From assembly GCA_014138725.1 (NCBI GenBank), contig JACJID010000005.1, positions 620,001-684,000 on the forward strand: a stretch of DNA of 64,000 bases, in the 5' to 3' direction. How positions within the stretch are numbered: the first letter of the stretch is position 1; every line of letters starts with the position of its first letter. A program made the position numbers and the translations under genes. Below are positions 22,258 to 56,998 of this stretch, piece by piece. This stretch comes from Kutzneria viridogrisea. Its GTDB lineage: Bacteria; Actinomycetota; Actinomycetes; Mycobacteriales; Pseudonocardiaceae. Below the pieces are notes generated by a model, which was not told where the DNA came from, made no database searches, and saw nothing but the letters and a program-made list of their open reading frames with translations.

Positions 22258-23043
22258 ATGAACCGGTACGAGCGGCTCAACATGCTGCTGGAGCTGCTTG
22301 CCGAACGCGGCAGGGTGGATGTCGACGACATCGCCGAGGAGCTCACGGTCTCGGCCGCCACGATCCGCCGCGACCTGGACCACCTGGCCGAACAGCAGCT
22401 GCTCACCAGGACCCGGGGCGGGGCCGTGGCGCACGCGGTGTCCTACGACCTGCCGCTGCGCTACAAGTCGGTGCGGCACGCCGACGACAAGCTGCGCATC
22501 GGGCGCGCGGCGGCCTCGCTGGTCACCAGGAACACCGTGGTCGGCTTCAACGGGGGCACGACCACCACCGAGGTGGCCCGCGCGCTGGCCACCCGGCCCG
22601 ACCTGCACACCAGCGACGGGGACACGGCCGTCACGGTGGTCACCAACGCGCTCAACATCGCCAACGAGCTGGCCGTCCGGCCGCAGATCAAGCTGGTGGT
22701 GACCGGCGGGGTGGCCCGCCCGCAGTCCTACGAGCTGGTCGGCCCGCTGGCCAGGCTGATCCCCGACGAGCTGACCCTGGACGTGACCTTCCTCGGCGTG
22801 AACGCGCTGGACCCGCAGACCGGGGCGAGCGCGCACAACGAGGGCGAGGCCAACATCAACCGGCTGCTCGCCGCGCGCGCCGCGAAGGTGGTCGTGGTGG
22901 CCGACTCCTCCAAGCTGGGCGCGAGCGCCTTCGCCAGGATCTGCCCGATCGAGGAGATCAACGTGCTGGTCACCGACGCCGAGGCGGACGAGACCGTGGT
23001 GCGCGCGTTCGAGGAGCGGGGCATCGAGGTGCTGCGCGTCTGA
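22258..23043 (+). CDS. DeoR-family regulator of the amino-sugar operon
   Basis: This 261-residue protein has an N-terminal DeoR helix-turn-helix (VDVDDIAEELTVSAATIRRDL). Its sugar-phosphate-sensing domain has FNGGTTTTEVARAL, VVTNALNIANEL, VVTGGVARPQSYELVGPLA and VVVVADSSKLG, all typical of DeoR sensors related to ribose-5-phosphate isomerase. ATG 22258 has GGGAGG in front. It is divergent from the operon at 21278-22168 and shares the palindrome, so it probably represses that operon until a hexosamine phosphate appears. Confidence 0.9.
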   Translation: MNRYERLNMLLELLAERGRVDVDDIAEELTVSAATIRRDLDHLAEQQLLTRTRGGAVAHAVSYDLPLRYKSVRHADDKLRIGRAAASLVTRNTVVGFNGGTTTTEVARALATRPDLHTSDGDTAVTVVTNALNIANELAVRPQIKLVVTGGVARPQSYELVGPLARLIPDELTLDVTFLGVNALDPQTGASAHNEGEANINRLLAARAAKVVVVADSSKLGASAFARICPIEEINVLVTDAEADETVVRAFEERGIEVLRV

Positions 23044-23056
23044 GCCGCGCCGGAGC

Positions 23057-23182
23057 GGGACTCGGGTGCGGCACAGCGGGACTCGCGGTCCAGGGAGCGG
23101 GACTCGGGCGCGCCTGGCCGGGACTCGCGGGCTGGTGGCCGGGACTCGCGTGTGCCAGGGCGGGACTCGCGGGGGTCAGGTG
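23057..23182 (+). repeat. Tandem array of six 21-bp units, GGGACTCG core (locus 1)
   Basis: GGGACTCG starts at 23057, 23078, 23099, 23120, 23141 and 23162, exactly 21 bp apart. The next two bases are GG or CG, and a C precedes each copy. The remaining 11 bases of each unit differ but are GC-rich. The array fills the gap between the convergent DeoR and sigma-factor genes and runs into the sigma-factor stop. A second array is at 56892-56998. Function unknown. Confidence 0.85.
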
Positions 23183-23736
23183 CCGGCCATGAGTTTCTGG
23201 AGGGCGTCGAGGGCGCGGCTGGCGGTGGATTTGACGGTGCCCTTGGAGATGCCGGTGGCCTCGGCGATCTCGGCTTCGGACAGGTCGCCGTAGTAGCGCA
23301 GGACCAGGACCTCGCGTTGGCGGGGTGGGAGCTTGGCCAGGGCGTTGACCACGGCCTGGTGTTCGGCGGTGAGCATGGCCAGGGACTCGGCCGACCGCGC
23401 GTTGGCGGTGTGCGGTGGGGTGTAGTCGCGGGCGGTCTTGCGGCGGCGCAGGACCGAGCGGCTGCCGTTGACCACGGCGGTGCGCAGGTAGCCGACCGCG
23501 GCGGCGGCGTCGCGCAGGGTGGACCAGTTGCGGTGCAGTCCGGTGAAGGCTTCCTGGACCACGTCCTCGGCGGTGGCGGGCTCGTCGACCAGCAGGATCG
23601 CCAACCGCACCAGTCGCATCCGGTGCGTGCGGTACAGGTCCTCCAGTGTCAGCGCCGGGGCCGGTGCTGGCTCGGGACCGTCCACCGCACGCAGGTGACT
23701 GAGGGTTCGCTCCACACTGCTCGCCTGCACGTCCAC
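23176..23736 (-). CDS. SigE-family ECF RNA polymerase sigma factor
   Basis: This 186-residue ECF sigma factor has region 2 (YRTHRMRLVRLAILLVDEP, then AEDVVQEAF) and region 4 (ALAKLPPRQREVLVLRYYGDLSEAEIA, then ISKGTVKSTASRAL). The pattern matches the actinobacterial SigE subfamily. The start is GTG 23736; a longer frame would run over the divergent promoter. No anti-sigma gene is next to it; the divergent neighbour is a YciI-like gene. Confidence 0.87.
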   Translation of the reverse strand: MDVQASSVERTLSHLRAVDGPEPAPAPALTLEDLYRTHRMRLVRLAILLVDEPATAEDVVQEAFTGLHRNWSTLRDAAAAVGYLRTAVVNGSRSVLRRRKTARDYTPPHTANARSAESLAMLTAEHQAVVNALAKLPPRQREVLVLRYYGDLSEAEIAEATGISKGTVKSTASRALDALQKLMAGT

Positions 23737-55734: not shown

Positions 55735-56889
55735 ATGCTCCCCGCTGCCACCCGTGCCGCCGTCCCGCCGTTCCACGTCATGGAGGTGGTGTCGGCCGCC
55801 GCCGAGCGCCAGCGCCTGCACGGGGACCTCGTGTCGTTGGCGGCCGGTCAGCCGTCCACGCCCGCGCCCGCCCCGGTGCGGGAGGCCGCGGCGCGGGCCA
55901 TCGCGGAGCACGCGCTGGGCTACACCGAGCAGCTGGGCATTCCCGAGCTGCGCGCGGCCATCGCCGGGCACTACGCGTCCCGGTACGGGCTGGCGGTCGG
56001 GCCGGAGCAGGTCGTCGCGACCACCGGCTCCTCGGGCGCGTTCCTGCTGGCGTTCCTGGCCGCGTTCGAGGCGGGCGACCGGGTCGCGCTGCCCAGGCCG
56101 GGCTATCCCGCGTACCGGAACATCCTGAGCGCGCTGGGCTGCCAGGTGGTGGACCTGCCGTGCGGGCCGGAGACCGGGTTCCAGCCCACGGTCGAGATGC
56201 TGGAGGCACTGGACGAGCCGATCCGCGGCCTGGTGGTGGCCAGCCCGGCGAACCCGACGGGCACGGTGCTGGGCGCCAAGGAACTGGCCCGCATCGCGAG
56301 CTGGTGTGAGGCCCACGAGGTGCAGCTGGTCAGCGACGAGATCTACCACGGGATCAGCTACGGGGAGCAGCTCGACTGCGCCTGGCAGACCTCGCGCGAG
56401 TCGATCGTGGTGAACAGCTTCTCCAAGTACTTCTCGATGACCGGCTGGCGGCTGGGCTGGATGCTGCTGCCGCACCGGCTGCTGCGCGCGGTGGACTGCC
56501 TCACCGGCAACTTCACCCTGTGCCCGCCCGCCATGGCGCAGCACGCGGCGGTGGCGGCCTTCTCGCCCGAGTCCTACGCCGAGGTCGAGTCGCACGTGGC
56601 CCGTTACCGAGCGAACCGGGACCTGCTCGTCGGCGGGCTGCGTGCCCTGGGCATCGACAGGCTCGCACCGGCCGACGGGGCGTTCTACCTGTACGCCGAC
56701 GTCTCGCACCTGACCCAGGACAGCATGGCGTTCTGCCGGGAGCTGCTGGCCGATACCGGGTTGGCGATCGTGCCGGGCATCGACTTCGACCCGGTCGACG
56801 GGCACCGCAGCGTGCGGATGAGCTTCGCGGGGTCCACCGCCGACATGGAGCAGGCCCTGGCCCGCCTCGGCAGCTGGCTGCACCGCTGA
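55735..56889 (+). CDS. PLP-dependent class I/II aminotransferase
   Basis: This 384-residue fold-type I aminotransferase has PANPTG, SDEIYHGISYG and the PLP Lys in NSFSKYFSMTGWRLGW, with the C-terminal Arg in HRSVRMSFAGS. It resembles aspartate/branched-chain type enzymes; the amino acid cannot be chosen. ATG 55735 is the start. The 21-bp array follows its stop. Confidence 0.9.
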   Translation: MLPAATRAAVPPFHVMEVVSAAAERQRLHGDLVSLAAGQPSTPAPAPVREAAARAIAEHALGYTEQLGIPELRAAIAGHYASRYGLAVGPEQVVATTGSSGAFLLAFLAAFEAGDRVALPRPGYPAYRNILSALGCQVVDLPCGPETGFQPTVEMLEALDEPIRGLVVASPANPTGTVLGAKELARIASWCEAHEVQLVSDEIYHGISYGEQLDCAWQTSRESIVVNSFSKYFSMTGWRLGWMLLPHRLLRAVDCLTGNFTLCPPAMAQHAAVAAFSPESYAEVESHVARYRANRDLLVGGLRALGIDRLAPADGAFYLYADVSHLTQDSMAFCRELLADTGLAIVPGIDFDPVDGHRSVRMSFAGSTADMEQALARLGSWLHR

Positions 56890-56891
56890 CC

Positions 56892-56998
56892 GGGATTCGC
56901 CCGCGGGTAGGCGGGACTCGCGCCCGGCAGAGCGGGACTCGCCGGGTGGGCGGTCCAGGTCGTGCGCGTGTCCCGGCCTGGGGCGCGCGAGTCCCGCT
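56892..56998. repeat. 21-bp-spaced GGGACTCG array with converging orientations (locus 2)
   Basis: Forward copies start at 56892 (GGGATTCG), 56913 and 56934, 21 bp apart. Reverse copies (CGTGTCCC at 56967, CGAGTCCC at 56988) are also 21 bp apart. The inner forward and outer reverse copies form a perfect 12-bp inverted repeat (56931-56942 with 56987-56998). The array lies between the aminotransferase gene and the small membrane gene on the same strand. Confidence 0.8.

Follow-up and report, generated by a model that had tools for sequence, protein, structure and literature searches.

The gap between two convergent genes in the window, the 64,000-nucleotide stretch of DNA analysed here, is filled by six exact copies of the core GGGACTCG at a period of exactly 21 bp. 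The same core and period recur throughout the window's own genome (G000, 10.25 Mb), which has 353 + 346 = 699 exact 21-bp pairs of GGGACTCG compared with 0 + 0 in a reversed control. We tentatively read this family as BIME-like 3'-end elements, phased arrays of candidate protein-binding sites on DNA that would have been gained by insertion and without a RAYT, an account that we hold to be plausible though a little short of probable.

The focal array and its family in G000

The first-pass annotation had placed six GGGACTCG copies at a strict 21-bp period in a gap between convergent genes. The period is exact at all six positions, and the flanking DeoR-family and ECF sigma-70 genes end at 23043 on the plus strand and 23176 on the minus strand, respectively (Table 1). 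The annotation was mistaken about the spacer between cores, which has 13 bases instead of 11 and is not free but conforms to a degenerate consensus. There is no T-run within the focal gap, and neither a GTAG nor a CGTC tag, nor a complement of either, occurs in positions 23044-23176. No replication initiator gene adjoins the array, its neighbours being the DeoR and ECF sigma genes. An aminotransferase gene (55735-56889) is followed, 2 bp past its stop codon, by a second array. Counted on both strands, the window holds 11 copies of GGGACTCG versus a shuffle mean of 5.98 (100 shuffles, two of which reach 11). The raw count is mildly high at most, and the extraordinary feature is the spacing; same-strand core pairs that lie 10-60 bp apart, with at most one mismatch, are separated by 21 bp in 8 of 18 cases.

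Table 1. Features at the focal site and at the second array, in window positions
Feature	Position	Strand	Details
Focal array	23057..23169	+	six exact GGGACTCG cores in 21-bp steps, starting at 23057, 23078, 23099, 23120, 23141 and 23162
Convergent gap	23044..23175	.	132 bp, filled by the array throughout
DeoR-family regulator gene	22258..23043	+	HTH_DeoR and DeoRC domains; stop codon 13 bp before array start
ECF-type sigma-70 gene	23176..23736	-	stop codon 6 bp from last core
Second array	56892..56941	+	GGGATTCG, GGGACTCG, GGGACTCG at 21-bp spacing
Inverted pair of second array	56967..56995	-	GGGACTCG and GGGACACG, 21 bp apart

The annotation had also proposed looking for a genome-wide peak at 21 bp and for arrays inside coding DNA. 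The peak is present, as the 699 pairs against none in the control indicate. In an 800-kb sample of G000, which was not random (C1:1-400 kb and C5:300-700 kb), 45 pairs fall in mainly intergenic sequence (97.6 kb) and none in mainly coding sequence (702 kb). These 45 pairs form 17 arrays, which extrapolates to roughly 260 arrays in the genome. The commonest core spacings among those listed for the sample equal a multiple of 21 or fall one short of it. An autocorrelation of convergent gaps that makes no use of the core ranks lags 63, 21 and 42 as the top three of 66 in G000, and lag 21 is second in G006, G310 and G020. For G047, a genome from outside the family, lag 21 is not raised in convergent gaps (12 gaps only); it ranks third in co-directional gaps, where missed coding sequence raises lags such as 21 that are multiples of 3. 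Other over-represented words in the 800-kb sample, counted on both strands, include TCCACAGTGGAC, seen 32 times against 0.1 expected, and TTGCGATCCTCA, seen 30 times against 0.0.

The 21-bp unit has the core GnnACTCGCG and takes the form GGGACTCGCGnnCSSSWGRGC in G000. Unit statistics were drawn from 29 regions, namely the nine stand-alone arrays of the sample and 20 short stretches without gene context at consecutive places from C1:1300094 to C2:431191; because all were chosen for holding an exact-core 21-bp pair, the 139 of 158 successive core intervals (at most one mismatch) that equal 21 are to be read for regions picked in this way. Between the outermost exact cores of the arrays there are 82 registers, 63 of them with an exact core, and core positions are conserved at 91-98%. 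Spacer position 13 is C in 77 registers (94%), position 18 is G in 70 (85%), and position 21 is C in 80 (98%), while most other spacer positions prefer S, W or R. Structural pairing inside the unit was rejected, as mutual information is clearly raised only for neighbouring positions of the spacer (9-10 and 11-12). Power at 10.5 bp in the A/T profile is only 11% for G000 and 28% for 43 units from other genera, and gyrase-like wrapping was rejected on account of this weak periodicity. The last base of the core is G in 150 cases and A in 22, with no other base, in stand-alone regions of G000; at 11 loci of this genome near DUF222 genes the counts are 89 G, 50 A, 2 C and 1 T. This G-to-A drift is the pattern expected from deamination of methylated CpG, which it suggests.

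Eight of the 17 sampled arrays lie upstream of DUF222-HNH genes and nine stand alone. For every stand-alone array, a stop codon lies no more than 25 bp from one end. By gap class (approximate, as genes were called with a custom, crude codon-usage caller), five of the nine are in convergent gaps (58 in the sample), four in co-directional gaps (216) and none in divergent gaps (104; Fisher tests, P = 0.006 for convergent and P = 0.07 for divergent gaps, each versus the rest). The avoidance of divergent gaps could reflect selection against broken promoters. Sites in the congener G006 are convergent in 31 cases, co-directional in 13, divergent in two and coding in 22; its 12 convergent clusters include seven in which the core occurs both ways round and 11 with a core no more than 11 bp from a stop codon. 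Searches of 400 kb each found five arrays in G310 (three in convergent, one in a co-directional and one in a divergent gap) and one in G020, in a convergent gap. How the core is oriented with respect to the neighbouring stop codon is mixed in G000 and is not the same in G006 as in the few arrays of G310.

Thirty-three DUF222 matches were found in G000, from which we defined subfamilies A and B on score, leaving out six further matches. GGGACTCG copies lie upstream at all 15 subfamily-A loci; for subfamily B, where nine of ten loci were covered, eight have no copy upstream and one has a single copy. Among 30 DUF222 loci of relatives, none has at least two exact GGGACTC copies at 21 bp, and isolated copies occur at 10. 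Tandem repeats listed for these loci include, in other genera, four copies of a related unit at 21-bp spacing upstream in L177 (G025) and a 21-bp array of another sequence in L174 (G009). Array pairs number 15 in G082, yet this genome has no match to the subfamily-A protein, and G012 has 46 such matches, yet one array pair. DUF222-HNH proteins were rejected as a general driver, the link being clear only in G000, and the link is treated as local to that genome. By eye, L147, L151 and L166 share two further features: a recurring inverted repeat of ~115 bp (GGGTTGGTTT...AAACCAACCC) beside 21-bp arrays, and a GTGTCGG array with a period of ~22 bp that adjoins the 21-bp arrays upstream of DUF222-HNH genes.

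Congeners and other genera

Exact 21-bp pairs number 0-7 in six congeners compared with the 699 of G000, and the congeners carry the core mostly in palindromes. The 12-mer GCGGGACTCGCG occurs 239, 132, 131, 51 and 42 times in G006, G002, G005, G003 and G001, versus 10, 18, 5, 12 and 6 for its reversed control; in G004 the counts are 4 and 3. Inverted core pairs with a total length of 50-80 bp, absent from the control, number 82 in G006, 44 in G000, 43 in G005 and 25 in G002. For the three congeners among these, the pairs listed span 51-75 bp and show no phasing in 10-bp steps. In G005, the listed members of the 43 pairs resemble one another, being palindromes of 73-75 bp whose stem is of the GTCACACCGAA type.

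The DeoR and ECF sigma genes that flank the focal array are syntenic in the five congeners searched (G001, G002, G003, G005 and G006). An overlap of the two stop codons, as CTAG, is seen in G001, G003 and G006, and 18 bp separate them in G005; the array is absent from all four. An insertion of ~0.95 kb with IS-like ends separates the two stop codons in G002 (about 540-1500 of L390, with inverted ends GGGCCTGTTTCAGA...CTGAAACAGGCCC). Because the array is missing from the orthologous gap in four congeners, it has no essential role at the focal site, and such arrays come and go. By eye, the junctions of G001 and G002 agree with those of Kutzneria buriramensis and Kutzneria sp. 744, which puts the window's genome in or next to Kutzneria. 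The focal array was most simply gained in the window's lineage. Just past the DeoR stop codon, Saccharothrix coeruleofusca and Amycolatopsis arida (L271, L308) have, by eye, ~21-bp periodic repeats with other cores.

Some other genera of Pseudonocardiaceae have 21-bp arrays with drifted cores (CGAGTnnCG) at the same exact period. At least 10 matches to CGAGTNNCG at 21 bp were found in 22 of 297 family genomes (G000 included) versus 4 of 297 for the control. Counts are 191 in G310, 109 in G150, 88 in G083, 83 in G206, 78 in G228, 70 in G232, 60 in both G020 and G217 and 48 in G215, and most of the 297 genomes have 0-2. When any gap from 1 to 31 bp is allowed, the totals are 201 (G310), 114 (G150), 77 (G020), 68 (G215) and 84 (G232), and the pairs at gaps other than 21 are at the level of the reversed control (16, 11, 15, 17 and 14, in the same order). 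Inverted pairs in genus g16, with junctions counted by hand in G150 and G083, are 38-39 bp long in 36 of 60 rows and 48-49 bp in nine, one of which, a 48-bp row from G150, looks like chance; the other 15 rows match the control's 16. Since an inverted core directly next to a core, with one 21-bp period added, already yields the 39-bp class, helical phasing of inverted sites rests on the nine rows. Class-wide, at least 10 CGAGTNNCG matches occur in 3 of 296 genomes (G000 with 726, G563 with 76 and G571 with 10) and in 2 of 296 for the control (11 and 13), so that G563 is the one clear case outside the family. G563 and G571 belong to another actinomycete family, and their CGAGTnnCG pairs lie in units unlike those of Pseudonocardiaceae.

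Folding, mobility and competing explanations

The focal array shows no excess folding over shuffles on either strand (z = -0.18 on plus and -0.83 on minus) and so lacks the stem-loop unit of REPs, an imperfect palindrome of 20-40 bp. Four of five one-way arrays, the focal one included, have no excess on either strand (z from -0.86 to +2.2), and the fifth, B82884, folds somewhat better than its shuffles (z = -2.38/-1.66). Arrays of G000 with inverted parts fold strongly in three cases (A92205, A362629 and B305952, z from -4.4 to -10.4) and less so in B376912 (-2.5/-2.3), and three hand-picked palindromes of 59-73 bp from G002 have z-scores of -9.1, -13.8 and -9.0. With neither excess folding nor a T-run, the focal array was rejected as an intrinsic terminator, which consists of a G+C-rich hairpin and a T-run behind it. 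A known RNA family was ruled out by the lack of any Rfam match at gathering threshold in the window, L147, L151, L153 and L166. The RAYT domain PF01797 was matched in 2 of 16 genomes, neither from the window's genus; it has no match in G000 and is absent from 13 of the 15 other genomes searched, and a RAYT-driven REP family was rejected on its absence from G000. A blastn search of the 132-bp gap at E <= 1e-5 returned no match among 72,556 records of plasmids and 50,697 of phages, and a plasmid or phage origin was rejected on this result.

In the reading that we favour, units laid head to tail would bring every core to one face of the helix, two turns apart, in arrays set directly behind stop codons and preferably between convergent genes. 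That core, period and place are common across genera argues for a constraint at the DNA level, which would act on the double strand. DNA rather than RNA is also favoured by the unremarkable folding of the focal array and by the strand that the adjacent transcript would read, which is not the same in G006 as in the small number of arrays from G310. The reader would be a sequence-specific, probably architectural DNA-binding protein that meets its cores two turns apart. A likely consequence would be the handling of collisions at gene ends (read-through, antisense transcription and positive supercoils), a role modelled on a proposal for BIME-bound gyrase. It is rather unlikely, though worth stating, that the arrays form a gene-end insulator class in Pseudonocardiaceae, made of phased candidate sites for a putative protein whose preference would drift from genus to genus under constant 21-bp phasing; G563, with its 76 pairs, would be a sporadic outlier of such gene-end arrays in another actinomycete family.

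The main rival is a selfish repeat family without host function, spread by a mobiliser, which we consider a serious possibility even if on the improbable side. Since insertions into promoters or genes would not be tolerated, the unit would land or survive behind stop codons, and recognition by the mobiliser would keep the core conserved. The patchiness within the genus, from 699 pairs to 0-7, and the empty orthologous site in four congeners fit such a history, as do the arrays upstream of every subfamily-A DUF222-HNH locus in G000, these loci being themselves multicopy; REPs with the same preference for unidirectional and convergent gaps are described as mobile DNA in the available text of PMC3733652. 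It is harder to reconcile with the lack of a RAYT in G000 and 13 other genomes, with a focal gap that matches none of the plasmid or phage records at the above threshold, and with a 21-bp period that stays exact in several genera despite drifted cores, something of which a mobiliser is not obviously in need. If DUF222-HNH (13E12-type) proteins themselves used or spread the unit as their recognition array, the division between subfamilies A and B in G000 and the 21-bp arrays at L177 and L174 would be accounted for, but no relative's locus has an exact GGGACTC array and G082 and G012 are discordant; we regard this as very unlikely.

An element acting at the RNA level, as bidirectional hairpin terminators or as structures in the 3'-UTRs of convergent genes, is unlikely. 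It would draw on the strong folding of the three G002 palindromes and of G000 arrays with inverted parts, on the scores of B82884 and on the siting behind stop codons. Four of the five one-way arrays nevertheless fold no better than shuffles, the focal gap has no T-run, and the same two genes manage with overlapping stop codons in three congeners and an 18-bp gap in a fourth. Recent tandem duplication, as in an ordinary minisatellite, is scarcely credible, and for the stand-alone arrays it is largely disfavoured. Some higher-order repeats do occur, for example at C1:400798-401162 beside a DUF222 gene, with an 84-bp period, and spacers are slightly more alike within arrays (identity 0.585, 110 pairs) than between them (0.545, 3532 pairs), a level reached by 3 of 2000 permutations. 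The excess is just 0.04, however, and core and spacer positions are conserved very differently. Because identity within arrays barely exceeds that between them, recent duplication explains little: the copies would be old or independently drawn, with the core held and the spacer drifting inside its degenerate consensus. The first-pass annotation had argued against recent duplication on other grounds, and this part of it stands; the two results that it named as refuting, no genome-wide 21-bp peak and arrays equally common in coding DNA, did not appear. Its spacer length and its free spacer do not stand.

Known repeat systems and implications

Plasmid iterons are direct repeats of ~20 bp whose spacing of about two helical turns would suit a row of bound protein. 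The focal array likewise consists of direct repeats of ~20 bp at constant spacing. Iterons belong to one origin beside a rep gene, whereas the present family occupies hundreds of chromosomal loci behind genes. REP and BIME elements of Escherichia coli and Pseudomonas are closer in distribution, as described in the available text of PMC3733652: they are hundreds of short, interspersed, intergenic repeats with a bias toward convergent and co-directional gaps, are found singly or in arrays, and vary between related strains. The 21-bp family is similarly dispersed and intergenic, with a preference for unidirectional and convergent gaps. It differs in that its one-way arrays repeat a non-palindromic unit in direct orientation, strictly phased at two turns, and, unlike GTAG- or CGTC-tagged REPs, the focal array has neither tag and G000 has no RAYT. 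The same text states that CGTC REPs have no dedicated transposase either (PMC3733652), and gyrase sites are said to be over-represented in BIME-2 (PMC6379681, available text). We do not claim REP or BIME membership because the palindrome, tag and RAYT tests were negative for the focal array. Binding of gyrase, IHF or Pol I is a mark of BIME-2; in the present unit the 10.5-bp A/T signal is weak.

The TAACTGA repeats of Beggiatoaceae, in the available account of PMC4679880, are also genome-wide and intergenic, with two to six direct copies of a short core and a putative binder, but they lie mostly just upstream of start codons, whereas the present arrays follow stop codons closely, with a period of 21 bp. 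Satellites of prokaryotes are likewise tandem repeats in bacterial genomes; the available sections of PMC6749651 report 23 in Amycolatopsis mediterranei, call the dispersal of non-coding satellites rare, and describe no 21-bp 3'-end family. A literature search on GGGACTCG and on intergenic tandem repeats of Pseudonocardiaceae, largely among papers outside subscription, found no such family in the titles and abstract openings listed, and the available sections of the Kutzneria albida genome paper (PMC4210621) contain no such repeat.

If the arrays are selfish, they would constitute a large REP-like family without a known REP transposase, which raises the question of what moves them. If they are bound by a protein, gene ends, above all convergent ones, would be marked by hundreds of identically phased docking sites, and the family would offer a direct way to study how actinobacteria of high GC content keep convergent transcription apart or deal with supercoils.
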